Shown: positions 409-59,157 of the stretch, in pieces
Layout of the letters: each line of letters begins with the position of its first letter
How positions within the stretch are numbered: position 1 is the first letter of the stretch
Assembly: GCA_033439255.1 (NCBI GenBank)
Contig: CM065878.1
Coordinates: 2,480,001 to 2,544,000, forward strand
Length of the DNA stretch: 64,000 nt
DNA from: Hericium rajendrae
Taxonomy: Eukaryota; Basidiomycota; Agaricomycetes; Russulales; Hericiaceae
Reading direction: 5' to 3'
Notes under the pieces: model-generated
Database searches by the model: none
What the model was told of the DNA's origin: nothing
What the model saw: only the letters and a program-made list of their open reading frames with translations
Translations under genes and position numbers: made by a program

Positions 409-3400
409 ATGACTGGAAGCTCCGTCAAGAATCTCGTGAACTTTTATGATACCCCCGCGGAACCGGGCACCTCGAGCGCATCGCATGATTCGTCTCGAGA
501 TGCAACGCACCCATCCCAGGCGTCGCGCTATACCTCCGCATTGTCTCCGTCACATCCTTCACCGACACCTGCTCGATTTCTTCACCCGAGCAGTCGCGAC
601 TGCAATGATTCGAAGCTCGAGAACAGCTCTGTGCCGAGCACTACGACTGCCGTTGCTCATTCTACCGCTGTGGACATGGACGCACTACCCGACTCAACAA
701 CCGACGTTGCTGATGAGTGGCAGCCTGGCGTGGTACATTTCCGGGAAGGTTCTCGTAACAGACGCGTCAAGAACTGGTTACTCACTCGGGGTGCGTCTCC
801 CGAAAGTGAGGAGCAATATCTCCTCTCAACTGTCTCGACGAAGGAGAGCCTTGCGTCCATTGCGAAGGATTTGGATGATTCGAAGGGAAACGATACCGCG
901 ACCTCTTCTGCCACTACTGCCGTGACAGGTTCTAACCATACCCCGGTTCCAGCGGCCACAGTCTTTGCTCGAAAGGCTGCTCCTCTAGCTCTACCTGACC
1001 TCGATACCTATATCGCGTCGTTGCCAATGCCATCATTTCATTCCATTTCCCAGGCGGCTAAACGCAAGGCAGGGGACGTCCCCATGTTCATTCCCATGGA
1101 CCGGCTCGCTGCCTCTGGGAGAAGCATAGAGGATCTCGAGACGAACTCTCAGGTGAGACCGTTCTGGAAGAACCGAAATTCAATTTTCAGTGCTTTAATC
1201 GACGTTGCCTTGGGTATTACTGTGCGTTAACTAAATATTCGAGGTTTTATGTCTTCGTAACCGATTTAATAGGGATCGAGCGCCCTTGCCACTTTCTACA
1301 GCTTGCAGGGATTGTTTAATACTCTCCAGCTATTTGCGCTTGTTCTAAACACTCTTGGTGAGCTTCCGTTCGTGCTTCCTTATGAATTTGTTTGATCTTT
1401 TGTTTAGGCTCTCACGACAAGGCTTCTATCAAGGACGACTGGAGACAAGTTTTCTTGGGTAAAATGTTCGTAGTCTGGCGTTATCTTCAGGTTTCGATGA
1501 ATCAAATAGAAACATTTAGCCCAAACATCCTAGCTCTCAATTATGCGTCAACGCTGGGAGAGTCTCTAATATTGCTGGTCGTTTTCATGGCTATCGCCGC
1601 CTGTTTGTTATACTTCTTCCATCGCTCGACGTCTCCGTGCCTGCGCTATGGTCGATTCGAGGGCTTTCAGCAACCTGACAAGAAAAGCGCCGACTGGAGC
1701 ATTGTCATCGTTAGCTTCCTTTTGACAATAATTTATCTGCCCTTAAGCACGCTCGCCGTCCATGTCCTGACTTGGTCAGACGACTTGTGGGCTATCCCCA
1801 ACCCTTATATCAACGCGACCACCAATCCGCCGATTGTTGCACCCTTGGGGCCTCCGGATGAATTCAGAAGTCCATTGGATTTTTGCTATACAACAACGAT
1901 GAAGCGGAATGAATTGAACTACGCCCCCGTACTCGTCATCCTATCCATTGTCGTCATTTTCGGGGTGGGTGTTGACAAGTCATATTGTAAACACTCCCAA
2001 TCTCATGTGCCGTTCGATAGCTGACCATCTGGTTCCCAATTTCGCTAAGGCGGGCTATCAAGCAGGCGGTCCCTCTGGCTGATAGATATACAGAACTCGG
2101 CAAGCGTCGGGGCAGCAGTGACATGGACCGAGAGTATCAACGACTTCTTGACAGAGACAGGAATCCTCTATCGTTCTTGTATGGCGGTGCGTTTCAGCGT
2201 CCTGAGTCTGGCCATTAGCTTCATTGACTAAGATGAATATAGGATTCCGGCGCAATTGGACCACATCTCAATACTTGCATCTTTTCGCCAAACTAGTCGC
2301 GCTCCTGATTGTCGCCGTGATCGACCCTAACAATTGTCTCTTTCGATCCTTCGTCCAGGCTCGCATCGCTGCTGCTCGTCAAATTCTATTATTAATCTCG
2401 ACAACCATCTTCTTTGCCGTTCAATGCATCTACACACCCTTTCTCGACCCTGTGAACAATGCGAGCGAATGGGTATCAAGGTTAAGTTATATCCTGACAT
2501 CTGCTGTCGCTCTTGCGGTCGCACTCAATATACCCGGAAAGAACATCTTCCAGGGACCGGTATTATATGTGTTGGTGAAATTTCTCAACTGTGGAGTTAT
2601 TTTACACTGACAATGAACTTGCAGAATCTATATCATCACATATGGCTTGTCTTTCTGTAAGCTCTATAGTCTGCTGACTGCGCTTGGCACTCATCGTCAA
2701 TAGATTTCACTATCATCAACTGGAGTTTCATGCAGCGCCTCGTCAAAAGTAAGCACAACTGCACGGCCGAGAATGAAGCTAACTCCTTTTCATTAGAATT
2801 GGCCAGAAGGATTGATTTTAGTGAGTCTCGAATACGACTCTGGACTTCTTGAGAAACTCACGTCGTGGAGAGGCATCGACATATTCTCACCACGGTGAGC
2901 TAGACATGTATGGTGCCACTACACGATGCTCATGTCATTTGTCATAGGCTGGATATATCGTCCACCTCTCCCCATGCGCGGCGGCGAATCTGGCAAGAGG
3001 CTATCACAACTCTGTTCTTGACAAGCCCAGAATGCCAGATCCCCAAGGAGCAGTCTATGCGTTTCGTGCAAGCGCTAAATGGGGAATATCCTCCTTACTT
3101 GCTGAACTTCGCGAGCTCTCCTGGGGAGAGGCACGTAGAAAATCTGAAGGTAAGGTAATCAATCTGCGATCTTGCTAGATACTTATGCTAGCGAAGATTC
3201 TCAGAGACGTAGGTGGTATGAGCTACAAGAAATCCGTGATGCTGTTTTCTGGCCCTGATCAAGAGTGGTGCCGAAGCCTGTTCAACGAGATTCAGAGCCA
3301 TTACGTGGGCCCAGATAGTTACTGGAAAGATTCTTCGAAACCTCAGGTTCCTGGCTTCACGCGGAGCTTTGGCAATGCTTGGTGGATCCCATTTCCGCCG

Positions 3401-4919
3401 ACTATTGTGAGCCAACGTCCTTGCATGCAGCCCGGTTTTCTAATTACATTTCAGGTCATTCGATATGATGATGGGCCACTTGCTGTCATACAAGAAGTCT
3501 CCGATCTAAGGATGTACGTCGCTCAGAACTCGGATCCCAATATCCGGCGTAGGCGTGAAATTCGGTTGGCGTTACGTGCATTAGACGGACAGGTTGTCTA
3601 TTGGCCTCACAAATATGTATCGGTACGCGCTTAGGTCCATTACGTGCGGCTCAGCTCAAAACGTTCTTAGTCCGCCGGGTCTCGTTCACCGTGGTGTTGC
3701 CGAGGCATGCGATACAGGGCCCAGACAACCATTCATTTTCAGACTTGCACTTTGAACTTGCTACGCAAAGGGGACCTCGTTTGGGATGGTCTACAGCTCG
3801 GGAGTGGGTTCGACGTGGAATTGGTTTACTCGAAGAAGGTTCGCCTCGATGGCGCCCTGATTGGCCTCAATGACAGTTATGATCTGACTCCAACTTTGGC
3901 CCAATTTCTCTCCGTCAACCATGGGCTCATTTCAATCCGCCTCCCGGAGATTGAGTCCAAATTGGAACATTATCGACAGCATTTGAAGATCGAATGTCAG
4001 AGCAAAATTGACATTCTCACGTATCGATTCTTGTCAACTGTTTACGATCAGCCTCGGGATCCGTCCGGCCTTGCACAAAGTTCGATTGAATTTGAACGGA
4101 CTTGCGAGTCCGACAGCTAATGGTTGGAAGCGAGGCGATATTTGAGACGACTTACGAGCGATTACAAGCCGTGTCCACATCAGAAGTTGCAACATGGTGG
4201 TATATCTTCTGGGTGCGTCTCACAATTCCAACACTGCACATCAAATCGGAGCTAATATCCATTCAGGATGATTTCTTGGCGACGAAATAACGAGACCATC
4301 AGCGCTTTGAAGTCACACGCCACAGACTTCAATCCACACTATCCAACTTCGATCGCTTATACACCTCTTCCACGCGCTGGGTTGGAGACATTCTTGACGC
4401 AGCGTGGTCTTCTTAACAGCCCTACACGATGGGGCGACTTCATTCACCATGGCTTCCTCAACAAACTTTATGTCCGTCTCAATGACATTGCTTTTCATCG
4501 TAATGATCATGTATGTGTCATGCCTGTTCTTCACTTGTCTTTATTCACTAATTTACTAGGCAAACATCTTACATTTGGGTCTCAATGCGTCGGAGGTCGA
4601 CATGGAAGACATCGATCTCGAAACACAGGCACGACCATCGACGCTTGGGACAGGTGGCGGGACCGATCATGACGACTCTTCTATACGTGCACGACCCGCG
4701 TTCCGCTGGGAGGGTATACTCAACGACCCGTTGTCAAGGGGGCACAAACCTCGACGAAGGATGCTTGCGAAGTTGGGTGCGTGGTTTGGCGTGTCCCCGG
4801 TTTGGAGGACTGGTACGCCCTCACCTGGAATTTCTCTGGATGTGAAGCTTCAGGGGGCTAAGTACGTCTTGCTGGATCCATCTCAGAGTCTCCTAAGCAC
4901 GAAAAGGAGTACACAATAA
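409..4919 (+). CDS. Large multi-spanning membrane protein, conserved fungal family, function unknown
   Basis: I do not recognise a named function. The ATG at 409 opens a Ser/Pro/Thr-rich, probably cytosolic N-terminus of about 245 residues. After it come about seven hydrophobic segments, for example around 1550-1620, 1700-1770, 1930-2060, 2260-2320 and 2380-2440. A long hydrophilic C-terminal half has blocks rich in Trp, Tyr and charged residues, such as GNAWWIPFPPT near 3370-3410 and RALDGQVVYWPHKYV near 3570-3620. At least ten short introns are needed, the first at 1222-1272 and the second near 1359-1408. The frame breaks near 3093, where one extra C would join LNGEYPP to LLAELRELSWGEA. A second join around 3620-3760 could not be resolved. 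The protein end is at 4919. The exon content and membrane topology are well supported; the exact model is not. Confidence 0.7.
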
Positions 4920-5112
4920 GTAGTAGTGAACATTGTCCTCCGAGATACTAGCTGCTATTGATCTATTGATCTATCTCCTTATGACCGATGCGCTGTGACG
5001 TAATCACCTCAAGATTTGAATCTGAGATCTCTTCGAACGACTGCTAGTCGGCTAACTCCATATTCTCTGCCCATTGCTGCTGTGATTGTATACTGTTCAA
5101 CTCGTTTGAAAG

Positions 5113-6545
5113 ATGCCAAGACGACCAAGACCCGTAAAGCGCGCTGTGGCAGTGGCTGAAAAGAAGAAAGAGAAGAAGGAACCATCCCATTCAATTGCTG
5201 TTGAGTCCGATTCTGATGAAAGCTCGGTCGCGTACGAGGATGTAGCACCCGAGGACTATGAGACAGAATCTGAGGAGGACGTTGATGCCCCACGAGTTGC
5301 TCAATGGGTGGACGACGAAAACTTGTCAGAGAAGGGTCTGTCTTCCGAAGACGAGGAAGAAGAACAGGAAGATCCTGTTCCACGACCTATGGTGCGTTAT
5401 TTATTCGTCTCTGAGAGAGACTACCTCGAATGACATTGGTCTCCGTAGAAAGCATTAAGAAACGGTACGTCTCTTCCAGAATTCTACATCCGGGCTCTCT
5501 AACTAAAGTCCCGCATTCCCAGATCTCTCGTCTTTACCATTCGGTGCTTTGAGGAAGGCCCAAAAGGCATTATCCCAGGTCACCCCTGGTAGCGACTCAG
5601 AACGAGACGAACAATCAGATGCATCCGGATCAGGCAGTGAGGGAGAGCCGTCTGGCTCAGGGCTGGGCAGAAGTCACACCAGCGAGCGGGATGCTGAAGC
5701 GAAGGCGAAAAGGAGTTAGCGAAGAGGAAAAACAAGCATGCGTATGTCATTGTCAGCCTTTTGCCATCTTCATTGATGTTGAATTACATGCAGGCCAACT
5801 GAGATGACTTCTAAAAGACCGGTGACGCGACGAAGAACCGTGATCGAGGTGCAGAAGATGGTACGCGTTTGTCGAAGAGGGCTGGAGGTCATCACAATCT
5901 TACCTTTATTTCAGGAAGTGCGGGATCCTCGATTCCTGCCGCTCGCCGGGGAGCTTGACGCCAAGAAATTCAGATCGCAATACGGCTTTATTGGAGATTT
6001 ATATCAGGACGAGCTACGAACCTTGCGCGAGAATCTGAAGCGAGCGAGGAAGATGCTCAGTTCTTCACCACGCGATCTTCGTGAAGAAAGGGAGCTAGAA
6101 GTCGAACGCCTCGAACTGGCCGTCAAGCGTGCAGAAAGCTTGGTCAATCGAGACAAGAGAGAAAGATCGAACAGGAGGCACTGGCTCGGATGGCTCAGGA
6201 AGAGAAGGGCAAGCAACAGCACGGGAAGGGTGCCTTCTGGTTGAAGAAATGTGAGCGATGATGTTCTGTTTTATTCTCAATGTCTCACTCGCTCGCTGCG
6301 CGCGATCTAGCTGAAGAAAAGAAGGAACTGTTGAAGGCACGTTATGAAGCCGTGGCGGCAGAAGGAGGTGGACGTGCAATCAAAAAGGCGATCGAGAAGA
6401 AGCAGAGAAACTGAGCCAGAAGGAGACGAAGTCAAGACCATTCCCTCGTGCAATGCCAGGAAGTGGCAGCAATGCTCAAAGTCTAGGGAAACGGCGTGCT
6501 GGCGACAGATCTGACAGTGCTAGGGCAAAGCGCATTAGGACCTAA
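5113..6545 (+). CDS. RRP36: rRNA biogenesis protein RRP36
   Basis: RRP36 belongs to the small-subunit processome and is needed for early pre-rRNA cleavages in the nucleolus. The N-terminal half is acidic (Glu/Asp/Ser-rich). The family signature LSSLPFGALRKAQKALSQ follows at about 5520-5580. RDPRFLPLAGELDAKKF begins the conserved core at about 5925. Behind it lie a Lys/Arg/Glu-rich helical region and the closing block KGAFWLKK, KAIEKKQ and KLSQKE. A 16-base micro-exon sits at 5449-5464. The gene is broken three times as written: at the A run 5708-5711, at 6162-6164 and at 6408-6410. In each place one more A restores the family sequence, and the last leads to a stop at 6543-6545. As written, translation would stop early. 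I read this as sequence error rather than a pseudogene, because everything between the breaks is conserved. Confidence 0.85.
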
Positions 6546-7009
6546 GCACTTGCGCTTGAAGGAACATAAGTAGCTAGGATTAGCCCGGCCTCGAACTTCC
6601 CAATCACCGAGATTGGATGTTCATACACTTCCCACTACCATTAGATAATGAATTTCTATAAGTTTGCTATCATGGAGAATGTGCACTTCGAGAATGGGTG
6701 ATCCAGAGGTACGAAGCTTGAGTCCAGTACGGTATCTGCTCTGCTCCCGGAGAGAAGTACTGGACTAGGTTGTGATATGGATAAATCATGCGTGAGAAAA
6801 TTGAGATAGAAGTTAGCAGGTCAGGCGGAAGGGCTTGAAGCTTTGAAGAAGCGGAGCAGCTCCTCTTCGTCAGCGCCTTCATGGCACGCTGAACCCCTGG
6901 ATGGCTGTATCACCTCTCCAAAGGGTGACAGCGTCCAACTCGGTTCGGCACTAGACGTTCATCGGTACGTCGTGCATCGTGCACCACCACAATATTTTCA
7001 TTTGCAGCC
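6546..7009. other. Intergenic region and probable 5' UTR of the CorA gene
   Basis: No independent gene is seen. A good intron, GTACGT at 6965 to TTTGCAG at 7007, ends just before the ATG at 7010, so an intron in the 5' UTR of the next gene is likely. Confidence 0.4.
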
Positions 7010-9431
7010 ATGCCATCTCGATCTCTCGAGGACTTCCGTCGTCTTTGCGGACCAGCCGCTTCATCACGAACAGCCTGATCATGGAGTAGTAGAACAGCCG
7101 GCGTCGTCAGTCGAAGAGGGTGATATCTATCGTGGCGATCCTCCGGCACTCAAAACGCCAAGGCCAGAATCGGTCTCGTCCTCGTCCTCTTCCTCTTCAT
7201 CATCCTCTTCAGGTTCGTTTGTGGGGGGTCGTTTGGGTGCCATCGCTACTGTCGTTGAACGAGCCATAACACGATGGGCACGAGCAAACTGGTCTACTTC
7301 GTCCTTGAGCTCCGATACCTCCTCGACTTCATCCCGTTCGTCGTTCCGTACCACGAACAAGTCGGCCCGTCGTCGCAAGGCACGTTTGAGCCACATGGAT
7401 CTTCGCAGAGCGCAATCCGAACTCGAGGTAGCTGCTCGCATCAAAGCTCGCGAAGAACGACACTACGTTTCTCGTGAGTTTGCTCTGTATCTGCCCCCGT
7501 CTCCAAAACCACCACACTCCTCCAAAGCCGTCGGCTTGTCCTTCGACGATCATCCCCAGAAGACACTGAGAACGACCGATCTCCAGGAGATCTTGCGCAA
7601 TCTCGAGGCTTCCTTGAAGAGATCATCACGAAGAGCGCGTCACGCAAACCAGCATGCACGACCAGCTCGACCCAAGGCCGCCGCCGATGGGTCACTTCCC
7701 CCTCTTCCCCATCAAGACTATATGCTACCTGATGACGGGAAAAATATACCCCCAAAGACGAAGAAAGCTCCCGTCGATGATCGTCCCGGCTCCCATCAGG
7801 CATGGTGGTTGGATGTTGCTAGTCCGACTTGGGAAGATATGCGTGCTATCGGGAAGGTACGTAGTTCCAATTTTTTTTTAGTCTTATTCTTTACTGAGCA
7901 TACGTGAAGCTTCTCCAATTGCACCCGTTGACGCTTGAGGACATTTTGCAACAAGAGCCTCGGGAGAAGCTGGAGCTCTTTCCGAAGCTTGGTTACCACT
8001 TCATCGTTTTTCGTGCCATCGAGTCCGTACGAACTCGGAAACCATTCAGCTTTATCAACAAAGGCGGTGAAGCTTCCTTCGGTGAAGAAGACATCGTTGG
8101 CGAAGTCTACGTGTATCTGATCGTGTTCAAAGAAGGCATTTGCACAGTGAGCACCTCACATGATATGTCGAGCGATAACGGATGAGCTCATTTTATCTCT
8201 ATCCCAGTTCCATTATTCGGACATATCAGGTCGGTTTATTAATGTATCTCCCCTTGTTCTTGCTGATTTCACCTGCAGAGCATATCGAGAGAGTGCGGAA
8301 CAAGGTTTTGTTGACGGAGAATACCATTAATAAGTCGTCAGGCAAGTTTGAATCACGTCGACATGACTTCACGTATCGCTGAGTTGCAATGAGTTTAGCA
8401 TGGATCGCGCATGGTATCCTTGATTCTATCGTCGATGCCTTTTTTCCATTCTTAGAGGAGCTGGAGAAAGAGATCGTGGCCATTGAAGATCTTGTGTTCT
8501 CATACGGTGAAGCCGAATCGATGCTTTCACCTATGACCGCGGGCCCGCCAAAATCATCTGGTCTGTCGAGGAAGAAGGGCGATAAGGAGAAAGCAAGTCC
8601 CCCTCACTTCTCGCCGATGGATGAGAAGAGCATGTCGAAGGATGCGGTCTCTATCCGGACTGCTAGGACGCGTTTCTCGGTTCCTCCGTTGACATATCCA
8701 ATGGCCCTTCGACGGCTGAGGAAAAACATTCAATCGGCTCTGACACTATTTCCTCATCGCCATGGTGCTGGGGATTCAGCTTCGTCAAGCGGAAATGTAT
8801 CAGCCTTGAAGCGTATGGCGAAGACAAGACGGCTCGTGACATCTCTGGGTCGTGTCCTTGCTATGAAGTCGGAGGTGGTCGCTCGCCTTCGCAAAAGGCT
8901 GCTTATGTCTGGCGAGTACGGTCAACTGGATCGCAGTTCCGATGATGCAGAGGTCGCTATCTACATGGGTGATGTTCAAGGTTCGTGCACTGCTTGGGCT
9001 GCGTTATACTTGTCTGACTACGGTTTTGCAGACCACATTCTCACTCTGCAACAGGCTTTATCGCATTACGAGCGCATGCTGAGCCAGTCCCATCCGACGC
9101 ATCTGTTGAATCTACGTGTCACAGTCCTGCGTGGCAGGTCCAGCAGCGACAAGGCCATAATAATTCTGACCACGGTGATTATAGGGGTCTTACCGCAGCA
9201 AACCGTCATCGGTGAGACTTTCGATTACATCTGTCCTTCAATTATTAACCGATCCTCGTGAATCGACCAGGTATCTTCTCTGAGAACATCCGCCTCCCAA
9301 AGAACGGAGATGGCCATTATTATATATTTGGAATCATTATTTTGGTGTGTCTTGGCATCGTTTGCGCTTACTTCAGTCTAGTACGATGGTGGTGGGTGCA
9401 GGCAAAGAAAAGGAAGCATGTCGTCTTGTAG
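7010..9431 (+). CDS. CorA-superfamily Mg2+ transporter (Mnr2/Alr-like)
   Basis: This is a fungal Mnr2/Alr-type divalent-cation channel, probably for Mg2+ at the vacuole or plasma membrane. The long N-terminus is Ser- and Arg-rich, with a 12-Ser run near 7175-7210. The CorA cytosolic domain is clear: WWLDVASPTWEDMRAIGK, then LHPLTLEDILQQEPREKLE, then ISEHIERVRNKVLL. The coiled stalk QQALSHYERMLSQSHP follows. Two C-terminal hydrophobic segments flank the pore at 9150-9400. The usual [G/S]MN pore signature reads SEN (GIFSENIRLP). The intron at 8342-8398 is of the GC-AG type. The 5' end is uncertain: the ATG at 7010 (MPSRSLEDFRRL) is not in the same frame as the main coding frame, which has no in-frame ATG before about 7398, so a base error or an unseen intron lies near 7070-7090. 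Confidence 0.85.
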
Positions 9432-10189
9432 ATCTGTCACCGCATTATTCCCCGTGTACAATCCCTGCTTTGCATTAGGAGATCAACGACTAGTTGCGCA
9501 TTCAATACGTTCGTCGTCTAATGATCATCGAGACCGTGCTAAGTTATCACATTTTTATGTCATATTGTCATGTTGCTCACAAAATCTTCACATCTTGGAG
9601 CCAGCTCTCCACATCTGATATAATAACCCTTCGATGCGCTCACGATAGGCGCGGCGCGCCTTCAACGGCAGGAATCATGACCCTCGCCTACTCAGAGCTC
9701 CAGCTCGCGTAAAGCCCGTAGGAGAGACGGCACAAAGCCGAAGCGCTGCTTGAAGCGGTGGAGCGTTCCGAACAAGTTGAGTTCTAGCTTGAAGAATCTT
9801 CATGAAACGGTGAAGCGCTTTTGGTTGCAACGCGCCATCTTCGTTGTCAAGCCCGCACTCCACAAAGAAGTCGTGCGGCACATCTATTCTGGGACTTGCC
9901 GATGCGACGTTGCAAGTCGCGTCCTCTACGCGCTGTGCATGCACGTCGAAATGCTGGTACCGGTGGAGCCAACGGTGACAAAATTGTGGACCAGGATGAC
10001 ACCTGTTTTTCGCCGCGGTTCGGGACGCTTGCATATAAAAATCCTAGGATGAGAGCCAGTGAGAACATCATCCTCGGTCTCGTCGATCCGGCATCGTATC
10101 CTGCCATATTCCTGTCTTTACCTCTAGTCCCTCCTCCCAACAACAAACTACCAACAAACCTCTAACTTCGCTCTTTTTCACCGATCGAA
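9432..10189. other. Intergenic region with the promoter of the small secreted protein gene
   Basis: Open frames on both strands around 9675-10050 have no recognisable domain and no splice structure, and I do not call them genes. The right end carries a TATA box and a C/T-rich leader upstream of the ATG at 10190. Confidence 0.4.
10033..10040 (+). promoter_or_regulatory. TATA box of the small secreted protein gene
   Basis: ATATAAAA lies about 150 bases upstream of the ATG at 10190, in a GC-richer setting. A pyrimidine-rich leader follows. A strong TATA box fits a highly expressed or inducible secreted-protein gene; that use is inferred. Confidence 0.55.
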
Positions 10190-11179
10190 ATGATGTTCAT
10201 CCGCGCTTCCACTGTCATTGCTCTCGTCGCCCTCTCGTCGCAGGTTGCTGCGCTCCCTGTGCAGGCTGATGCCAAGGACTCCCTGGTAAGTTCGTCCAAA
10301 CCCACTTATATCCTCGATGGTCATTTGCTTATTAGGCTTTGGTTGCAAAGAAAGTCGGCGCTGTCGTGAGTACAATATTGGCCAAAGGCATGCTATATTC
10401 ATACCAACCATGCGCTATCACTTTTAGTACGCCCGTACCGTCCCCTCACCTGCCGTCCAGGCTGCTGAGGCTGCTGCGTCCTCGGTGACGGTAAGTTCAT
10501 TTTTTCACGACTGGATTTATTTCTGACTTTTCGCGTAGAGCTCTTTGGCCCCTGCTGCGAGCCCTGTCGGTGCCGCTGATTCCGCTGTATCGAGCGTTTC
10601 TGGCGCTGCGACCTCGTCGGCTGTTGGCGCTGTTGCGGCCGCTGCATCGCAGGCTACGACCACCGTCACGACCACCTCCATTGCTTCCCCCGCCTTCGCC
10701 GCCGTGAGCTCCTCAGCCGCCGCCGTGAGCTCTCCCGCTGCCGCTGCCGCCAGCTCCCTGCTGCGGCCGTTGTCAGTGCAAGCGTGCGTATTTCGTCTTG
10801 TGCGAACGTCCGCTTTAATTTTTGACATTCGCTCCTGCCTACAGTCCTCCGTCGCGTCGGCCAGCTCGTCGGCTGTCCCCGCCGCTGCCAAGGCCCTCCA
10901 GGCTCGCCAGGACGCGACCGCGCCCGCTGACCCCGTCTCGGGCGTTGTTGGCGGTGTCGTCGGTGCTGTCGGCTCTGCTGCGGGCCCCGTCGTCAATGCG
11001 GCTGAGAACGTCGCTGGCCCTGTCGTTAACGCCGCCGAGAGCGCTGCCGCGCCCGTTGTGAACGCCGCTCAGAGCGCTGCTGCTCCCGTAAGTCAACCCG
11101 CCTTCTGATGCGCTTTGTTCGCGGCTGAGTTTTGGGTGTTCAGGCTATCAGCGCTGTGAACGGTGCTGGCGTGCTCTAA
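10190..11179 (+). CDS. Small secreted Ala/Val/Ser-rich repetitive protein
   Basis: No named family is recognised. The first exon encodes a typical signal peptide, MMFIRASTVIALVALSSQVAA, cut probably after ALP or AAL. The mature protein is almost wholly Ala, Val, Ser, Pro and Thr. Toward the end it has a degenerate repeat built on PVVNAAE/Q with SAAAP (about 10980-11090), and the last exon ends AISAVNGAGVL. Introns are at 10286-10335, 10366-10427, about 10491-10538, about 10792-10844, and one before the last short exon. The frame breaks at the CCC run 10756-10758; one extra C gives SSPAAAVVSAS and joins cleanly to the next exon. There are no Cys residues that would suggest a classic effector fold. 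It may be a cell-wall or extracellular matrix protein. Confidence 0.75.
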
Positions 11180-13753: not shown

Positions 13754-14390
13754 GACAGGTGAGCGGGCGGAGGAACCGAGTGGTTCCAAAACAATATATA
13801 AGGGCGTGACGGCGCAGAAGGAGGCGGGCTGTGGGACAGGTGTAGGAGGGCAGCTTAGAATAATGGCAGACACATTGTGTCCTTGACTCTGATCCCGCGA
13901 CAATGAGGTCGGCAGATGTACCTCGAAAAGGAAAACACGATGCACTCATGTCTTCTCGTTGTATGTACGTAACTGCGCTGTCAGTCGAGGGCTTTTACAA
14001 TGATTGAAGTCAATCCTTGGATGGATCAGAGTGTTGTCGAACAAATCATAGACCTAAACAAGTCACCAGCGTCGTTTGAGACTGGAATTGTCTCTCTTAA
14101 CATCTCACCCCACGCACTAAGGCGTATTGTCTATAAGGCTCCCTCTGGTGGTACTCCGTAGCAAATGTCTCGCTTGGTTTCCAACGCTTGTAAGTAACCC
14201 AATGCCGAAAGTTCAGGATAGTTGGCAGGAGGACGAGTTGGGCAGCTGTACAGTAATTGGGCGTGTGAAACGGATGAGGCGTAGGTAGTGGCCGGATATC
14301 ACGGTCTCGGGCTGCCTCATCGTTGCCTTAACCCCGCACCACCTGCAGGCAGCAGCCCCCCGGTGGGCCTCTGCTTTTCTCTCCCCACAA
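13754..14390. other. Divergent intergenic region
   Basis: It serves the poly-Q gene (-) and PEX16 (+). The TATATA at 13794-13799 fits the minus-strand gene. The right part is C/T-rich up to the ATG at 14391. Nothing else is seen. Confidence 0.4.
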
Positions 14391-16866: not shown

Positions 16867-16908
16867 TGTCGTTATATATTCGTACACATTTATTTCGATT
16901 TAACCTCT

Positions 16909-37474: not shown

Positions 37475-39502
<2,028 letters not shown>

Positions 39503-48049: not shown

Positions 48050-48835
48050 TCATGCAGCCCATTTCTTGTACTCGCTGCCCGTCGGAGGCTTCACCGTAAC
48101 GGGGGCCTTCCCACTTCTTCCCAGTTCGTGCTGAGCGTCGTGCCTCCGCTCTCCTGGAAACTCTTCATCATGGCGCGCTTCGTGTCCTCGTCTGCGTTCG
48201 AGAACAGGTTCTGGAAGAACTCGTTCACGGTGCTGTCGCCGCCGACATTGGGATCCTCGGTCGTCGTCTTGGCCTTCTCTGACTCCAGGATCGTCGTGGT
48301 CACTTTGTCCCAGTCCTTGCGGGCTTGTGGCAGCGTGCTGCCGGCACGCGCAGGTACAGGTGCGGGCTGAGATTGTGGGATGGATTGGACGAGGGCTGAT
48401 GGAAATGAATGGTGAGACATCGATGTGGCGGGTGTGGAATGTGGCAATGGTACATACGATCGGGGCTGTCGCCAGTAAGAGCTCCCCACCGACCAAGCGC
48501 AGCCTTCACAAGACGTAACTCCACCTTGACCTTGCCCACGGCATAACTCGACTTCTCAGGGTCAATCTGGCCCTTGAGTGGCGCGAGCTCAAGTTTCTTG
48601 TCGCCGTTCTCGTAGATGACCTTCACATAGTAGGACGCATTATTAGTAATGGTGGGAAGGCATGCAAGAAGACTCACTTTGCGTGGCTCAAATTTCACGG
48701 AGACTTGGGCTGCATCTGCGCCACGATCGAATACCGAGACGATCAGCCGCTCGTCGGTTTCATAGAACTCATGTCTGCAAAATATAAGACAAGATGCCAT
48801 ACGACGTGAGGATTGTCATACCTAATGGAGGCCAT
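48050..48835 (-). CDS. SGT1: SGT1-like HSP90 co-chaperone (CS and SGS domains)
   Basis: SGT1 links HSP90 to SCF ubiquitin ligases and kinetochore assembly. From the ATG at 48835, MASIRHEFYETDERLIVSVF opens the CS domain at once, and FEPRK, LELAPLKGQIDPEKSSYAVG and KVKVELRLVKAALGRWGAL finish it. A Ser/Pro linker leads to the SGS domain with KDWDKVTTTILESEK, DSTVNEFFQNLFSNADEDTK, RAMMKSFQESGGTTLSTNWE and EVGKAPVTVKPPTGSEYKKW. The N-terminal TPR domain of yeast and plant SGT1 is absent. One frame break at TT 48108-48109 (one A short on the coding strand) separates EEVG from KAPVTV. Introns are after codon 5, at about 48620-48676 and about 48395-48458. Confidence 0.88.
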
Positions 48836-49340
48836 ATTTCACTATCGGATGTGGGCCACAAATCAGAACGCGGTAAGTAGATGGAGGAAAGAACAAGTAC
48901 TGGTGTTGAAAGAGACTGTTATTGTACTCTGCATGGTTGTCGATTTGTTGGACGGAGCCCCTCGCCGCGCGGCGGCAGCTCTAGAAAATTCTGCACGTGA
49001 ACCGAGCGCTTTCCCAAAGCAGTGCGGCCGCGTCGAAATTGGAGCCAACAATCGCGGACGTCTAGCAACGACAGCAGCCACGAAATTTTGCTTGCTCAGA
49101 TCTCGCAATATTGACCTGTTTGAAGCCCAGAGACCGACTGGTTCAGCTAAACTCGGGATGGATCGGTCCAACGCCTTTGCCAACCCATAATTCTGGATGA
49201 TGTCATAGCCCCGGCAGGAGCGCCTCGACTTCCAGGTTGAACGCATCCACATCTCCATCAGAGTCCGGACAGCAGAGCCTCCTCTTCTTGAACCACCACA
49301 AACCCCAGCACTCTTCTCTCAAACCGTCTATCTCATCGCC
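48836..49340. other. Divergent intergenic region
   Basis: Between SGT1 (-) and the GST gene (+). No strong promoter motif is seen. The part next to 49341 is C/T-rich. Confidence 0.35.
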
Positions 49341-50705
49341 ATGTCGACTCATATACCCAAGGCGGTCTTGTATTATGATGCAGATTCCGCCTGGTCGTCG
49401 GCCGGTCAGTCTTCCCCTTATACTGAACAACTCTTTGTTAATATTGTTCATTTCAAGTACGCCTGGCTCTGTAAGTAACTTTTTCGTGTATAGTTGCCCG
49501 ACTGAGATGAGATGGTCCCCAGCGAAGAGAAAGGATACGGCGACGATGAAGTCGATCTGAGGATCGTCGACCTAGGTACTCGATACCAACTCATCTCTGC
49601 CAGAACATTCTACATCTATGATTCATCCAGGCAAAGGGGAGAATCTCACGCCGTCATTTTGCGGCTCAACCCAAAAGGCATGTTTCATTCTTCAGATGTC
49701 ATTGCGGCACCTGATTGTCCGTTCAGGAACTGTGCCAACGCTCATCGTGCCGCTGCAGAATACGTTGTCTGCAGATACGGAAAGCCGGTATAAGGCGGTA
49801 ACTGATGTCAAGGTATGAGCGAATAGCAGCTTTGTAGTCTTGTTCAACAGGCACACCATAACCACAGGCTATCGTTGACCTTCTCGACCGGTCCCGGTCC
49901 GCGATGTCGCGAACACACACCACGTCCTACCGGCCTGCCCCGTCACTTTCACCTGCCACAATTGCACTCTGCGCCGTGACTGATTCCATCATTAGTCTCT
50001 TGCATGAGGGCCCAGTCTCGCCGGAGCAGCTCTTCTTTTCGAATGCACGTAATCAACAGGAGCTTCAGGAGGTTGCTAAGACCATCTTACCGGATTTGCA
50101 AGGCCGAAAGGACGCCTTGGACCGTTTTCTGTCCGAGAGCGCGAAGAGTGAAGTCGTGTATCGGAGAAAACGAAAACATTCTGGCTGGAGAAGAAGCAGG
50201 CGACGGAGGAACTCCTGAGTGTCCTCCAAAATGCCGTCAAGTCCGATGCAGAGCTGACTACAGCTGCGAAGGACAATCGACAGAGGTATTTCGAGAACTC
50301 GAAGGCAGCATGGGAAATCGACCTTTCTTTGGTGCTCACGAGGTTGAGCCAAGAGCTAACTGGACCCTACGCGTTGGGTAAGCTCAATTCCGAGAATTCT
50401 GTAGTCTTGATACTGATTTCTCCATAGGAGACCAGTTCTCCATTGCAGACGTGCATATCACGGGCTGGCTAGCTTGGATTATTATTTTATCGGGAGGGAA
50501 GCTCAGCGATAGTGGTTCTGTCGCAGTGCAGACCATCGAGCAGCACGTTGGAGGAGGCTATAAGTTGCCCAGGGATGCTGCCTACACCAACGGAACAACG
50601 GACGCAACAACTCCTACGGAGAAGGGTACGCAAAGCAAATTGGCGATACTGTGGGATGCCGTAAAGGAGCGTCCGAGCTGGAAGAAAGTGTACGAAGGAC
50701 GTTAG
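49341..50705 (+). CDS. Glutathione S-transferase-like protein
   Basis: A fungal GST of the thioredoxin-fold type. The N-terminal domain has HIPKAVLYYDADSAWSSA, then EEKGYGDDEVDLRIVDLGKG and ENLTPSFLRLNPKGTVPTL, where TVPTL carries the cis-Pro of the fold. The long helical C-terminal domain includes YRPAPSLSPATIALCAVTDS, KSDAELTTAAKDNRQRYFE, WEIDLSLVLTRLSQELTGPY and DQFSIADVHITGWLAWII, the family's N-capping/Asp segment. An intron at 49678-49726 is GC-AG. The frame breaks at TTTT 49657-49660 (one T short) and at GG 50163-50164 (one G short, restoring YREKTKTFWLEKKQATEE). The region from 49402 to 49530 has two introns around a micro-exon. Detoxification is likely; the class cannot be told. Confidence 0.85.
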
Positions 50706-51062
50706 CAGGGGCTGTAAATAATTAGGATGCTGTAGAAGAGATTGAGAATCACAAGCGCGGGACTGGTTGAAGCTGTGCAACGGACCGAGTAGACGCTGGG
50801 AGCTTACGTGATGATGTGAGGGAGAACATGGAAAGGCACCGTCGATATTCTCCGTAACTGTAAAGCTCTTCTTATTTCCTTTCCAACCTCCTCCTCGTTC
50901 TGTCGAAGAGCGGCGGTCTTCAACGTGGCGGCCACAATCTAAGTAAAGCCCCAGGACGCGTCGGACGACGGTCCCGTCGACGCCTGATCGACTCCGAACA
51001 CATTCTCGTGATCTTCGTCGTCATTCACTTGCCCTTCTCCTCGCTCTTTCCTCCTTCCCGCC
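50706..51062. other. Intergenic region
   Basis: 3' UTR of the GST gene and a strongly pyrimidine-rich leader (about 51025-51062) before the ATG of the glycosyltransferase gene. No other feature. Confidence 0.4.
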
Positions 51063-53664
51063 ATGTCCTTCGTCCTGGGGTCGATGGGCCCCTCGGGCTC
51101 GCGATCATCGCATCCTCGTTCGGCAAGGCCAGATGACTACGATGAACAAGATTCGCTGTCTCCTACATCTGCCATGTCCACCCATTCCTCACAGCCCCGC
51201 ACGCGCGCTCCGTTTACTTCATCCCCCTCTTTGCACGCGATCATGGGCCCTAACGACCTCCCAAACCAGACCGATTTCCTCTCTGCCTCTGGTCAGGCCA
51301 TGCACACCGCTGGCTCTGTTTGCTCAACCACACTCAACACCCCCGTACCGTCGCGTTCCAACTCGCCTCTTCTGCGATTCTATTCGCCCGGCCCTTCGTC
51401 GGTGTCCACTTCAGATACAGACAGTGAACCCGGTTCACCGCTCCTTGGAGATGGGCGTAGAGGGCTCTGGCTAGGAGACGAGCGGCGAAGATGGTGGTCG
51501 ACGGGCCCCTTCCGCCGAAGACGAAGACGAGAGTCTAGATGGTCACTCCGAGCCTTCAAGAAGATGCTCAAGAGGGTTGTGCGACATCCACTTTTCCCTA
51601 GACAACCAATAACTATTGTGCGTCCTTGCCGAGCCGTCCGACCCTTTACTGACCTCCGATCAGCTCCTGACGCTCCTTCTTCTAACTCTGCTTGCCCTCT
51701 CGATAACATTTCTTCTAATGCATGTACTGAATCCCGACAAAGAGCCTTTGCCATGGCGAGCATACTGCGCCGCTCCACCCACCTCCCCCTCTCCCCCATC
51801 CCTGTCATCACCCCCAGTCCCATTTGACATGTCGTCCATCAGTTCTGGGCCCTCGTGGCAGCCATTCCCTCCTAACGATTTTGATTCACTACCCCCAGCG
51901 GGTGTTTTTGTTGGTGTCTTCTCTGTGGACTCTTCTTTCGATCGACGTATGCTCGTGCGGACGACATGGTTGAGTCATCAACGGAGTCGTAACGGGGCTG
52001 GAAAAGGTGACGGAGGCGACGGGACGTCTAGGACGATTGTACGCTTCGTTCTAGGTCAACCGCGCAAGGCTTGGGAGCGGAGGATACGATTGGAGATGGA
52101 GAGTGGGTACCATTTGTGAATCTCATCCCGAGCGTTTCTCCTGACCATGGCTTTTACAGAGTACAACGATATCATCATCCTACCGGTTTCAGAAAACATG
52201 AACTCGGGCAAGACGCATGCATTCTTCAGTTGGGCCGCGAATGACTCTTGGGTCCCACCACTCTATTTCAACACGGACAAGCCACCCCCTCAGTTCTCGT
52301 ACTCCAACATCTCTCACCATGCACTTCCGTTAGCTGGCCATGATCCACCGCGTAGCTGGGCAGATGCTGCTTCCGGCTATCCGCGAGAATGGGTACGACC
52401 AGACTATATCGTGAAAGCCGACGATGACTCCTTCATCATGCTCGCTGAGCTTGAGGCGCGTCTCCGCATGGAATTGCATCAAAGCGTCAAGGCCGGACGC
52501 ACTCGGATAGTGCATCCAGGGGCCATTCCAGGTCCCAGCGTCTCGCGAGAGATCAGCCTTACGGGTCGCAACGAAGGGTCGACAGCAAGCTCGACATCTC
52601 AGGACTCGTCTTCGGCTGGATCATCCTCCGATTCATCGTCCGGACAGGATGGGCCTTCGACTTCGACACCGCCTGAACCTCGTTTTCCTGGGCCTCGCCT
52701 TACGATGATCCGCTCATCTACTGGGGATACCTGGTCAAGGGCAGGTTCATGGCTGGCGAGATGTATGCGCTGAGCTGGAGTCTCGTCGACTGGGTTGCTA
52801 AGAGCGCGGTGACCAAGGGCCTTACCCGTGGTGCCGAAGACAAACAGACGGCCAAATGGATGCGACTGCATCCGCGCGCATCTGAGGTGCGGTGGACAAG
52901 CGATCGCTGTTGGATCTACGACCATCCACGTTCGGGCACTGTGTGAGTGATCTCCTCTGCTGCTGAAGCTTCTTGTTCTGACATGTTTTGAATGCAGATA
53001 CTCTCATGGTTTCTTGTTCCCATCCGAAGTTGCGCGCGTGCGCCGCGGGATCATGTCATATTTCGATAGGATGCCGCAGGACGTCGCAGGAGGTGCCTCC
53101 ACCATTGGGTCGCCATCAGCAAATGGTGCCAATCAGATAGAAATTCCTTCGGCTTGGTCACGCTCCACCGTCTCAAAGTTTAGATCGAGGTACGCGTCGC
53201 CACTACCTGACTTGACAACGGAGCAAAGCGTCGAGGCGCTGTGGAGGGCAGTGACATGTCTCTTCTGCACGAAGGTACGGTCTGACGTCCCATTCAATAG
53301 TCTTTATGAATTGGATGATTGACATTGCGTAGGGAGTATTTTGACGCCCGAAGACGCGTGGCGACAACGCGAGGGGCGCAAGACGCGATATCAGGGCCAG
53401 CGCGTGGGCGGCACCGTGGTCGTGCACTTCATCAAGCAAAACATGTGGTACCTCGAGACGGCAATCGCGCTCCTAGAGGGAGACGAGGAGACTGAGCTGG
53501 ACATCCTGCGCAACGAGCGGCAGTACGCAGAGACGCATCCCTATCCGGAGCGGCCAATGGGGTCGCGGTTGCCGGCGAGCCATAAGCCACGGCCAGCATC
53601 GGGCTCGTCTGCGATGAGCCCCCCGATTGGGTCGGGATTCTCGAGGGGCATGCGAAGGCGATGA
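51063..53664 (+). CDS. Glycosyltransferase family 31 (beta-1,3-galactosyltransferase-like), type II membrane protein
   Basis: A Golgi type II enzyme. A cytosolic tail of about 180 residues, rich in Ser, Pro and Arg, leads to the anchor LLTLLLLTLLALSITFLLMH. The Galactosyl_T domain has AGVFVGVFSVDSSFDRRMLV with RTTWLSH, RFVLGQPRKAWERRI, EYNDIIILPVSENMNSGKT, the metal-binding DDD in DYIVKADDDSFIMLAELEAR, and DPLIYWGYLVKGRFMAGEMY. A Ser/Gly/Asp-rich stretch of about 45 residues (about 52570-52690) splits the catalytic domain. The C-terminal part has RGAEDKQTAKWMRLHP, DRCWIYDHPRSGTVYSHGFL and VGGTVVVHFIKQNMWYLETA. Frame breaks: CC 52698-52699 (one C short) and GG 53274-53275 at an exon end (one G short). 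Acceptor and sugar are unknown. Confidence 0.85.
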
Positions 53665-54503
53665 TGGCCATCGTCTCTTTCGTGTAGTATCTATGGGTTT
53701 CTAATCGGGACGACGTCAATGCTAACTCAGTCTGTGTACATCTGTATAATTATCGCTCGACTTCATCCGCAACTCCCTCACTTATTCCTTCTCATTGCAT
53801 GTGCATAGGTTAATCCGCCCTTTGCTTCGTCGCACCCCATTCACATTCATCCCTTCGTCGTCTGCACCTTCTTGTATTCAAAGGAGCGGCCACATCATCC
53901 CTGCGATGGTGCTATGGACTGTTTACTGATGTGTACACAGGTCGTTCCGCTCATACTACACCGTCTTTGTCCATCATTTGCTGTTCTATACTATTGGCGG
54001 CTAGATACCCTTCCGAGAGTCCATAAAAGTCCCGTGTGAGAAGGGGATTGTGATTGTTGGGTCATCTGTTGGAGCTGGCGATACGGTTTAGGGGTCCACA
54101 TGGGTATCCTGTGCAACATATCTGCGCCAACTACACACTGCGCATTGTATTCCCTCATCTTCTTACAGGCCTCACGATAGCCTCAGCTGGCTGAATTTGG
54201 GGCTCCCGGTAGATTGCAATGACAACTGCGAGTATATGATTATATGGGATGGCGTGGGCGGCAAACCTGTTTGCTCCCAATCTATTCCAGTAGCTCTGGA
54301 GAATCAGATGAAAGACGATATGAACGTGGTAACGAGCGCGGACTGGAATGAAGATCTTGCCAAGATTGTTTGCGCCCTGGATCCGGAAGGAACGTGGACC
54401 TCGTCATCTGGAACGTAGGCTTATCCTCTAGACTTAATTCTGAACCAGGTAAAGACTTAAAAGCGATTGTGCCGCCATGTAAATATAAAACATAGAATAA
54501 TGA
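53665..54503. other. Convergent intergenic region, 0.84 kb
   Basis: 3' UTRs of the glycosyltransferase gene (+) and the conserved membrane-protein gene (-). An open frame at 54197-54418 lacks an ATG, splicing and any domain; not called. Confidence 0.4.
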
Positions 54504-56006
54504 TCATACAAGAGATGTGATACTAGCTTGCCCGACCTGACGAGCGACAGCATCCGTATATCCGTCCAAGCTAGCGATATTATAGTCCGGCACATCGTCC
54601 GGCAAAGTCATCGCAATACGGTCGACCTTCTTCGCCGCCGCCGCCCTGCGGATCGTGCCCTCCCACTTCTGGAACCACTCGCCCTCGCGCACGCCCGCGA
54701 GCTGCTTGATGCCCTCCTGCGTCATCGTGTACGTCCCGCGCGGGTCGCCGAGCCTGTACTGCTCGACGTCCTTCGCCGGTGCGTTGATGCCTGGGCGCAC
54801 GAGCTCCCAGCGCTTCATGGCGTACACGGCGCCGCCGACGGTCCAGCGCCCGCCGCCGCGCGAGTGGAAGCGGCGGAAGAGCCAGAGGAAGGGATAGACG
54901 AACGTGATGATGAGCAGGAATTTAAGCCACGGGTTGGAGAGCATCCGCGCGAGGCGGTTGTCGGGACGGACGATGACTTGTGTTAGCTCCGTGTCGAATT
55001 TGATGCTGATGTCGCCGGTGTAGTGTGTTGACTGGATACAGGATTTGACGGCGCTGGTGAGAGCCTCGAGGTTCCATCCGTAGACGATCTGTTGATAACC
55101 ATGAGTATACACTGCAAATGAGACGTGATAGTTCGCACCTTCTCATAAATGAACTCCTTGAAATACTTCGGGCTGTTGCAGTAATCGTCCGCCCATTGAC
55201 GCAAGGTCCAGGAGGACTTGAGCACCTCTCGAAGCTGCTCCATGGGCATCCCCACATCTGAACGTCCATTCTCAATGTAACCGGATCCAGGGCTCATCCA
55301 TGGTGGGAATCCCTGCATGGTGCGTCGCAACGCCCATGCATCTCCATCCCTCCTCTCTTTTCTGGTCGCCTTACGCACGTCCTCTTCGTGCCCCACTTCG
55401 CGGACCATAGTTCCACGGTAGACGGGTTCATCGTCACCGACTGTCCATTGCACAACATCAGTAGACAGATGTTGACCGAGGTCGATGGAGAAGTCGAAAT
55501 CCGTCACTGTCTCGGTGTAATGCTCAGTCTCGGACCGTCGTCGTCCGTTGTTGTCAGTCTTGGTAACATGACGCGTCCTATGCTCCAGGTGGGTGCCTTT
55601 GCAACGCAGGAGGAAAACGGGAGGCTGAGCGGATTGTCCGAGCAAGAAGCGGTAGAGAGCTTCGCCTGGCAATCAGAGGTTGGGTCAGCAGGATGGCCTA
55701 GAAGTGACATGTCAGCAACGAACCGTCCTGGTTTAAATGAGGGTCATGTGTGATGATCGTCTTGTTCTTTGCGACGAAGTACTCTGCTTCATACGGAGTG
55801 AAGCTTGGAGGAGCCTCCTCGCCTCCCTGTGGAATGAACGCGCCAGACTGGTCAAACTCAATGAGAATGTGCCCACTGCTTTCCTCGAAAGTAGGAGGTG
55901 CTGGACTGGAATATTCTGATGGGCCCGCTGAGGACGCGACAGGATCGCTCGCGAGACGCGAAGGAGCCTCTTCGGAGTCTACAGGAGGGAAGTCTTTGAC
56001 GACCAT
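54504..56006 (-). CDS. Conserved fungal single-pass membrane protein, function unknown
   Basis: I do not recognise a named family. From the ATG at 56006 (MVVKDFPPVDSEEAPSRLAS) there is an acidic, Pro/Ser-rich leader, then PPSFTPYEAEYFVAKNKTII and GEALYRFLLGQSAQPPVFLL. DFDFSIDLGQHLSTDVVQWT, GMPMEQLREVLKSSWTLRQW and KYFKEFIYEKIVYGWNLEAL follow. One hydrophobic helix lies late (LKFLLIITFVYPFLWLF, about 54860-54910), and a C-terminal domain of about 130 residues with YRLGDPRGTYTMTQEGIKQL ends ITSLV. Two introns (about 55085-55137, 55652-55722) join in frame. An upstream extension is possible. The Trp/Tyr-rich core and the well-kept frame mark a real, conserved gene, probably an endomembrane protein. 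Confidence 0.75.
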
Positions 56007-56727
56007 CGTGGTCTTGTTGAGAATTACGTGGCTATGAACTGCGCAATTGGCCCAGTAATAAATGACCGGGCATTGTGATGCTTTGTAGGCAAGTTTGATG
56101 GGCGCTGAAGAGAGTGCCCTGGCCCTGACGCGCTTGGGATTGTCGGAAGTTGCAGAGCAAGAAGTGGTCAGATGAGCACCGACAAACGTGGATTTCACGA
56201 GATGCGACGATGTTCAAGTGATCAAGATTTTTGTCCTCAACTCTGTTGTCTAATCCTTCCTGAGTCTTTGCGTTCTGGGCAAGCCGGGTCGCAACGGCGT
56301 TGTGTGCACTTGCAGGTCCTTGGATCTCGGGGACGCCGGTCTGGAGGCAATGAGGGTGCACGTGCACGGGCAAGATGGGCCGTGGGGATGCCGTGACGGC
56401 GGGCAGTGGCTCTTTGCACCGCACCCCGTAGCCGTTGTCAATTATAGACGTCCTTTCCGTCGTCGTTGACCAGCGAGCGACCTCTTGACGTCTTTCCTTC
56501 CAGCGCTCACAACACGTCCTTTCTCTCCTTATCACGCCTTTATCATGCGTCGATGATCATGCACCCTGGCAAGAGGCAGCAGTCCGATTCTAGTCAGTCT
56601 TCACCAGGTAAGTTTTTTTGTTCGGCATGCCGTTCGTTCACCACGGAGTAGGCAATGCCTCGTGCGGCCGTGCCATTTTCGAGATATGGAGATAGTGGCT
56701 AGGGCTTCTGCCTGCAAAAGGCCATCC
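56007..56727. other. Divergent intergenic region
   Basis: Between the conserved membrane protein (-) and mucin-like protein 2 (+). Open frames on both strands here show no domain. A short intron-like GTAAGT...TAG at 56608-56651 may belong to the 5' UTR of the mucin-like gene. Confidence 0.35.
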
Positions 56728-59157
56728 ATGTTCGCCCTTGCGAGCTACTCTTTTCTCTTTCTTGTGTTGCAACCTTCCTGCACTTCTATTCCTCCCCATC
56801 TATGTCTTCTTCATTCCCTCCTAGCGGCACTTCGGTCTCTGATTTGCCTTTCACTTCCCTTTCCCCTTCAGCTTCCGAACCCCCTCCATCGTCCAATACT
56901 AATTCAGCTTCCACTTCCGTTTCTATTTCTGATCCCACGTCTCTGTCTCCATCCTCATCTACCCCGTCTACGCCCACTTCTCTCGCGTCACCGTCAATGT
57001 CTTCTGTCCCGTCATCCACGCCGTCGATTCAATCATCAATTCAACCGTCATCTGCTGCATCCTCTGTATCTATATCGCCAACTGCATCGTCGCCGTCTGC
57101 ATCGGTCACTTCTGCATCGCCTACTAACACTCCTTCAACTGTCAACTCATCTCCAACGGTCAACTCATCTCCAACGGCATCTTCATCCCTTGCATCGTCT
57201 TCAGCCTTCGCATCGTCTTCAGCTCCCGCAACTTCTTCAGCTCCTGCAACTTCTTCAGGTCCTGCGACTTCTTCAGCCCCCGCAACTTCTTCAGCTGCTG
57301 CACCTTCCACGTGAGTACATTCTCTAACACTTCACGGCGTCGTGTGTACCGTCTTTATTTTTCGACACGCGCAATATTATGTGACGCAGGTCCATGATGC
57401 CCCACCGGCGTTGTGGAGCGTCGTCATGATACAAAAGAGCAACCCGGTTTCCCAGCTCATTGAACCGCACCACACCGCACTGACTGACGATGTATCTTAC
57501 ACAGGTCTAGCTCTGTATCAGTTAGTGCAAACATGTCCTCATCTCCATCACCGATATCGACATCCCAGCCACCAACGTCGTCACAAGAATCTTCATCTCC
57601 GCCGCCGACTAGTTCTCCACCGCCGACTAGTTCTTCGCCGCCTACTACGTCCTCGCCACCCACTACGTCCTCGCCACCCACTACGTCCTCGCCACCCACT
57701 ACTTCTCAACCGCCCACTACTTCTCAACCACCCAGTTCTTCTCCGCCGCCTACTAGCTCTCCACCGCCTAGTTCCTCACCACCCAGTTCCTCACCACCAC
57801 CGAGCTCTACCCCGCCTCCTTCTACGTCCGACACGTCTTCAACTTCCCCGCCTGCTTCGACTTCTTCGCCTGATACCAGTACTACCACAACTACTGCAAC
57901 CTTTACCTCATCAAGCAATAGTGGACCGCGGCCGTCGTAAGTATTCCAAATGTGCTGCCATGGCTTGACCATTAACAAAGTGTTGCAGTTCGACTTTTGG
58001 CAGCACCGTCTTTGAAACTACCACTAATAGTCGAGGTGAAACAATCTCTACGGCTCCATCGCAGATTACATCAACGTTTGCATCTACGCAAAGCGATGGC
58101 GCTGTTTCGACAGTCACACAGGTTATCGCCAACCCGCCTCTGAATCCAAATGGATCATCTCCTCATTCGGGCTCGCAGTAAGATTCCGTGTTGATTTGTT
58201 TCAAACACTCCAAGGTCTGACCCTTTTTTCTAGATTCTTTTCAAACAAGGGGGCTGTAGCCGGAGTGTTCCTCATTGTGGGTCTCGCAGGCGCATCAATC
58301 ATCCTCTTTCTGTTCTTTTTCATCCGTCGTCGACGCCGCACTCGTCGTATCGAACACGAAACGGCTGTCTCCGCTGCGGTCGCAGCCGCAGGACTTAACC
58401 GTGCACCTATTGATGGCGACGACGATGACGACGGAATGCGGCGGACCCTCGGATCGTCTCAGGAAATGGCGCAGCGCTCTGCTCTCGGGTCTCGTTCCCT
58501 TGCTAGTCAATCACGCAACTTCGACCTGCCTAATGACGATGAACTTGGCATTGGCGGCGGTTTCGACCCGTATGCGGGCTTTGGTCATGAAGCCGGGACT
58601 GGACCTAACAACCAAGGAGGATACGCCCCCGCTCGTACCGCTAGTCCCCCGCTTGGAGCAGCTCCGGGCCTCCATTATCAGCAGGACAGCATAGCGAGTT
58701 CCTCCCAGGCCACCAGCGCACACGGGGCCAGCGGATCTGGACGCGGAGGACACGTCCCGCGATACAGTGCAGGGAGCTATGAGCCGCTGTTGGCTAATTT
58801 CTCGGAGAACGCGTCTTCCTCGCCAACGACGCCCGGTGAGGAGGCTGCCAGTAGCACACCACCGCCCCCTCCGCCCCGCAACCCGATGCGCGCCGTAGAC
58901 CAGGCAGAGCGTTCTCGCGAAAATGTGGCAGGAGACACGGACGATATTGGAGAGGACGGGATGCCCGATGCGAGGCTTGTGCCTGGGTTAGAGCGACCCG
59001 TTTTGGGGAGGCGAAACCAGTCGCTGCGGGATGACGTGGATTATTCGCGGCCGGTTCTCGAGGTTCGTAGCAACTTTAGCTACCTTGTTGATGTCTAACT
59101 AATCTCCGTATTTTTGCGCAGGTGCGTAATGTGGTCGATGACGAACACGACGACTAG
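56728..59157 (+). CDS. Mucin-like single-pass membrane protein 2
   Basis: A second surface mucin with the same plan as the gene at 32-35.7 kb. The likely signal peptide is MFALASYSFLFLVLQPSCTS at 56728. A frame break at CCCC 56794-56797 (one C short) separates it from the Ser/Thr/Pro/Ala ectodomain. The ectodomain has SSAPAT repeats (about 57205-57300) and, after a 190-base intron, PPTTSS repeats (about 57595-57760). A short non-repetitive part (STFGSTVFETTTNSRGETIS) follows. Then comes the anchor FFSNKGAVAGVFLIVG with GASIILFLFFFIRRRRRTRR, and a Gly/Ser/Pro-rich cytosolic tail of about 280 residues ending VRNVVDDEHDD. The FF-N-GAVAGVFL-VG juxtamembrane block is shared almost exactly with mucin-like protein 1. 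A wall-sensing or adhesion role is inferred. Confidence 0.75.
57205..57300 (+). repeat. Tandem 18-base repeats encoding SSAPAT
   Basis: About five tandem, slightly varied 18-base units that encode TSSAPA/TSSGPA in the ectodomain of mucin-like protein 2. Such arrays slip easily and vary in number between strains. Confidence 0.75.
57595..57760 (+). repeat. Tandem 15-base repeats encoding PPTTS/PPTSS
   Basis: Units of 15 bases, four of them nearly identical around 57635-57705, encode Ser-Pro-Pro-Thr-Thr. They form the most regular part of the mucin-like ectodomain, with a likely rigid, glycosylated rod structure. Confidence 0.8.

Follow-up and report, generated by a model that had tools for sequence, protein, structure and literature searches.

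Why do the reading frames of several recognisable genes break off and resume one frame over within a single 64,000-nucleotide stretch of the Hericium rajendrae genome? This stretch, hereafter the window, comprises positions 2,480,001-2,544,000 of contig C1 of an assembly of 46,767,965 bases in 19 contigs, and its genes contain numerous introns, each some 50 bases long. A preliminary description had listed 19 sites in the window at which one base seemed to be missing from a homopolymer and had proposed systematic homopolymer under-calling in long-read data. We find that 12 of the 19 sites read as frame jumps, all of them one base short, located in 8 genes: RRP36, SGT1, an SDR gene, a KARI paralogue, an esterase gene and I9/S8-prosegment-like, GST-like and GT31-like genes. 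In all probability these jumps are consensus deletions left over from the Nanopore/Racon steps of the assembly at places where short-read polishing failed locally, and the broken-looking genes are very likely an artefact of the public draft assembly rather than a property of the organism itself.

Each of the 19 sites was inspected on a six-frame printout of its surroundings, the open pieces were listed and scanned against Pfam, and the jump intervals, spanning 5-14 bases at the 12 jumps, were delimited by eye. Pfam matches flank three of the jumps on both sides and another three on one side, and six were recognised by eye only. The cleanest of the cases is the KARI-like gene (19238-20203; + strand), having its jump (19830-19837, touching a run of four) at the boundary of two domains, as KARI_N positions 118-165 of 165 end at 19835 and KARI_C positions 2-65 begin in another frame at 19853, leaving a gap of 17 bases. 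RRP36 (+ strand) shows three jumps. The second (6161-6165, touching a run of three) is matched on both sides, with PF06102 positions 6-115 (5783-6241) followed in another frame by positions 92-129 (6085-6258), the two matches overlapping on the genome, while the first (5708-5712, touching a run of four) and the third (6403-6410, touching a run of three) were read by eye; the piece 6262-6411 at the third jump gave no RRP36 match in the Pfam scan and a comparison of an RRP36 piece with the PDB gave no match. In the HSL-type esterase gene (jump at 27791-27795; - strand; not at a homopolymer) Abhydrolase_3 positions 25-79 and a second stretch lie in one frame and positions 118-208 in another.

Pfam supports one side of both jumps in the SDR gene (- strand), the frames otherwise being read by eye: at the first (17233-17237, without a run of at least three) adh_short_C2 is matched downstream and the upstream piece 17226-17492 has no match, and at the second (17165-17169) adh_short_C2 is matched upstream (17101-17298) and the downstream piece 17066-17284 has no match. 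SGT1 (jump at 48101-48111; - strand; touching a run of five) retains positions 1-66 of 82 of its SGS domain upstream, and its tail was found by eye in the next frame. Among the jumps identified by eye, the one in the I9/S8-prosegment-like gene (39276-39280; - strand) has no Pfam match upstream and Inhibitor_I9 below the cut-off (E=0.006) in the downstream exon only. The GST-like gene (+ strand) has two, at 49657-49664 (touching a run of four) and at 50153-50166; neither piece at the second has a Pfam match, a later exon reaching GST_C with E=0.0035, below the cut-off. Past the first of these jumps its exon ends at a 49-base intron (49678-49726) with a GC donor (GC-AG). The jump in the GT31-like gene (52693-52700; + strand) is weakly supported, with Galactosyl_T below the cut-off upstream (E=0.05) and no match downstream. 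The window thus contains at most 8 genes shown to be broken, fewer than the dozen or more that had been claimed.

Introns or misread frames account for two of the 19 listed sites, both in a transporter-like gene on the - strand, which was named by eye and none of whose three pieces matched Pfam: 40571 lies at the end of an ordinary 56-base intron (40569-40624) and 41311-41314 is the donor of an ordinary 49-base intron (41262-41310), each restoring the frame. The same explanation is possible at the five sites 3093, 10756-10758, 13461-13463, 53274 and 56794-56797, which are of low complexity or lie outside any recognised family, and less probable at the six jumps seen by eye only; the local genes are rich in introns of about 50 bases. 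As an account of the 12 jumps it is nevertheless very unlikely, because their intervals are too short for an intron, 27 single introns elsewhere in the genome measuring 49-64 bases, and because the KARI-like gene, the second RRP36 jump and the esterase are matched by Pfam in both frames.

The jumps carry on past the window into both flanks, and we therefore describe their direction and location for the window together with 40 kb of flank (104 kb), read by eye. In the flanks a DNA ligase gene (DNA_ligase_A_C) has two jumps of one base short each, a helicase gene (ResIII) and a PsuG-like gene (Indigoidine_A) have one such jump each, a phosphoacetylglucosamine mutase gene (AMG1) has one jump one base short and one jump one base long, and in a PfkB-type kinase gene one jump may be one base long. 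Over the 104 kb, 17 jumps are short and 3 long (binomial P=0.0026), each of the 20 junctions being defined modulo 3 only, and two of the 3 long ones could be two bases short. Exclusive loss of bases, as originally proposed, holds for the 12 supported sites; an extra base (or two missing bases) is probable in the transporter-like gene at 40487-40490 (- strand), and jumps with an extra base also occur in the left flank and in the CCT4 gene on contig C7. A homopolymer of at least three is touched by 12 of the 17 short jumps (5.8 expected, P=0.002) and one of at least four by 5 of 17 (1.45 expected, P=0.011); in the window alone a run of at least four is touched by 4 of 12 (1.0 expected, P=0.015). 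The jumps hence fit single-base indels with an excess of deletions and an association with homopolymers, which are the characteristics of residual long-read errors.

RRP36 and SGT1 are both essential in budding yeast. A genome search with three families (SGS, RRP36 and KARI_N) revealed one locus each for SGS and RRP36, both inside the window, and a second KARI_N locus on contig C5, identifying the KARI-like gene of the window as a paralogue. This second KARI_N locus lends some support to the idea that the broken genes are pseudogenes, or parts of a duplicated block in decay, whose functional copies lie in other parts of the genome. The idea is contradicted for RRP36 and SGT1 by the lack of any other RRP36 or SGS locus, and 39 kb of window DNA (1-20000 and 38000-57000), searched against the assembly, matched only repeats elsewhere. 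Intact copies elsewhere or dispensable genes, the hallmarks of such a block, were thus not found, the KARI-like gene alone having a second locus among the three families searched, and we regard this explanation as highly improbable. The preliminary description, too, had named RRP36 and SGT1 among the affected essential genes and had argued against many independent pseudogenes.

How such errors could have arisen is suggested by the origin of the assembly. Total length, contig number, largest contig and N50 are all identical to those given for H. rajendrae NPCB A08 in Table 1 of the published description (46,767,965 bp, 19 contigs, 5,307,752 and 3,238,877; PMC10608310), C6 being the N50 contig, and we therefore took the genome as the Nanopore R9.4 assembly of this strain of an edible mushroom, i.e. 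as built from error-prone long reads. According to that description the reads were obtained with R9.4 chemistry on a PromethION, assembled with NECAT, polished with two rounds of Racon and two rounds of Pilon using Illumina data, and haplotigs were then removed with purge_haplotigs; the strain is a dikaryon with a heterozygosity of 3.61%, and its BUSCO score is 91.6% compared with 96.4% and 97.5% in two relatives (PMC10608310). Work on bacterial genomes indicates that a consensus of this kind drops single bases, often at short homopolymers, and that Racon can tilt errors from insertions toward deletions (PMC8011154, PMC12007338). Pilon would then have mended much of the genome and failed in patches including these 104 kb, possibly through poor mapping of the short reads derived from both nuclei, or through their placement on a haplotig that purging removed afterwards; patches of this type are plausible in a heterozygous dikaryon polished before haplotig purging. 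The final step would be the one visible in the assembled sequence, where one-base jumps break reading frames, including those of the single-locus genes RRP36 and SGT1.

A patchy distribution is indeed what the remainder of the genome suggests. We used PF00118, E. coli GltB, CarB, PurL and ValS as well as PF00171 (12 of 88 Aldedh candidates scored) as queries and evaluated each junction between matches by subtracting three times the profile gap from the genomic gap. The conserved-family matches cover 37.6 kb with 40 junctions, comprising 27 single introns of 49-64 bases, 11 wider junctions (72-208) too wide to judge, one match nested in another (L026, introns by eye) and a single frame jump, which is one extra base in CCT4 on contig C7, whose pieces abut without a gap on the solved CCT delta chain 5gw4_d. 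The 1354 codons of PurL form a single open frame, and no jump interrupts GltB, two CarB-like genes or ValS at any junction narrow enough for a judgement. No open frame in the window and a single one in the flanks reaches 400 codons, compared with 22 in 200 kb of control loci and 5 in 50 kb of low-GC controls. One jump of one base short each was seen by eye in two control loci, L006 (class 3 lipase) and L012 (glutamine-synthetase-like), the only genes checked for jumps among the 7 of 20 control-locus frames to which Pfam assigned a family. The errors hence look patchy, being present elsewhere and much denser in this region. Expressed as a rate, roughly 20 jumps in no more than 20 kb of coding sequence (within the 104 kb) compare with a single one in some 35 kb elsewhere (P about 2e-8), the size of this contrast being uncertain as reading by eye is compared with coordinate arithmetic, the 20 kb are an estimate, 11 of the 40 junctions were unjudged, the Aldedh scores cover 12 of 88 candidates and the controls are highly conserved. 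The uniform spread expected of an unpolished genome was not observed, with 1 jump at 40 junctions elsewhere, and is not a defining property if polishing was patchy.

The jump-free genes elsewhere also bear on programmed ribosomal frameshifting or an odd genetic code, for which the mostly uniform direction of the frame change could be cited. Its probability is practically negligible: the intervals share no motif visible on inspection, a judgement made without motif statistics, one small gene would need up to three events, and PurL stays open over 1354 codons while GltB, both CarB-like genes and ValS are jump-free at judgeable junctions. A programmed mechanism had already been judged most unlikely, and our data agree. 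In the window itself, a PP1/PPZ-type phosphatase gene (60985-62760; + strand; STPPase_N and Metallophos by Pfam, the rest by eye) serves as an internal control with short normal introns and no jump seen by eye; likewise no jump was seen by eye in a SNAP (SEC17-like) gene of the flank.

The dikaryotic nature of the strain and its heterozygosity allow for another explanation, namely real frameshifts in one nucleus, in which a block of about 100 kb including the single-locus RRP36 and SGT1 has decayed and is complemented by the other nucleus. That the 39 kb used as query matched no duplicate in the assembly, repeats aside, and that jumps are denser here than in conserved genes sampled elsewhere would both fit. 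Set against this, RRP36 and SGT1 are essential in budding yeast and have single loci, so that a monokaryon carrying them in broken form would not be expected to live, nonsense changes would be expected and none were noticed by eye in conserved stretches (an unsystematic count), and the surplus of single-base deletions in homopolymers fits sequencing error, making decay in one nucleus very unlikely.

Leftover consensus deletions agree with published experience on several points. After Racon an R9.4 data set of P. aeruginosa contained 538 insertions and 2417 deletions (PMC8011154), and deletion errors were described to track homopolymers of 2-8 with a peak at 4-5 (PMC12007338); such consensus sequences resemble the present case in their one-base indels, the deletion excess of the bacterial sets, the short homopolymers and the frameshifted genes, and differ in that the assembly studied here was Illumina-polished and is nearly free of jumps in conserved genes sampled elsewhere. 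Nanopore-only fungal assemblies, those of Drechmeria coniospora, had most of 305 test genes broken, with run lengths corrected by short reads (PMC7500977). They share with our case the fungal source and the breakage of conserved genes by homopolymer indels in both directions, whereas overprediction was commoner there and losses dominate here. Errors can also survive polishing with short reads when these favour an error-free second copy (PMC8812927). This route was described for repeats in bacteria, and applying it to two haplotypes prior to purging is our inference.

Several observations weigh against consensus errors as the explanation. In the window alone, a run of at least three is touched by 7 of 12 jumps (4.1 expected, P=0.07), which is not significant; the runs involved are short, with 5 of the 17 deletions touching none of at least three bases. 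The P values rest on intervals delimited by eye, and Pfam matches both sides of just 3 of the 12 window jumps. Insertions are present too, and the published direction of errors is mixed, an S. cerevisiae assembly being insertion-rich after Racon and Medaka (PMC8011154). A census of homopolymer run lengths in the window versus the rest revealed no clear difference, the census being insensitive, and the alignment of a dispersed repeat of the window (17978-18566) with three other copies over about 495 columns contains no one-base indel. The case is built on the assembled sequence, and Pilon was applied, so that an unmended patch needs an explanation, which we could only infer. Homopolymer under-calling in long reads is still very likely, supported by one-base jumps in a 17:3 ratio of short to long, the homopolymer enrichment seen with the flanks, the single-locus genes hit and the R9.4 Nanopore origin of the assembly. 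Of the "systematic" errors of the preliminary description the long-read origin stands, and the pattern looks patchy instead of uniform, includes insertions and leaves out at least two of the 19 listed sites as normal introns.

If the genes are broken by the assembly, its gene content would be unreliable in patches, and annotation might record genes such as RRP36, SGT1 and a DNA ligase as missing or shortened. BUSCO was described as insensitive to short indels and can miss such damage for this reason (PMC7500977). The artefact would be an ordinary technical matter without bearing on biology.

Further scans of the window added little: among 20 additional frames 3 reached a Pfam family at E of at most 0.1, and Rfam and tRNA scans gave no matches. 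A hidden Markov gene finder based on codon usage and including frameshift states was dropped, as it missed recognised window genes and most of its judgeable calls elsewhere looked intron-like; in 20 control loci it made 29 isolated calls scoring at least 5, two of which, the jumps in L006 and L012, were judged clear and one base short. Three deletion calls with high scores from this model lie close together at L012 973-1613 (contig C6) and may mark another error patch.

The repeat at 17978-18566 has three copies on contig C5 at 91-92% and weaker copies on other contigs, and its window copy lacks several blocks near the left end. Sequences of about 40-65 bases at 11343-11405 and 12810-12870 recur many times in the genome, the second being clustered on contigs C16, C5 and C6. 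About 10 kb to the right of the window, L025 15-1802 (C1:2,554,015-2,555,802) contains nested inverted repeats with arms of 409 and 197 nucleotides at 100% identity, and an arm pair of 804 columns reaching from L025 into the end of L024 shows one mismatch and one gap; these repeats could represent a recent inverted duplication or a fold-back artefact of the assembly.

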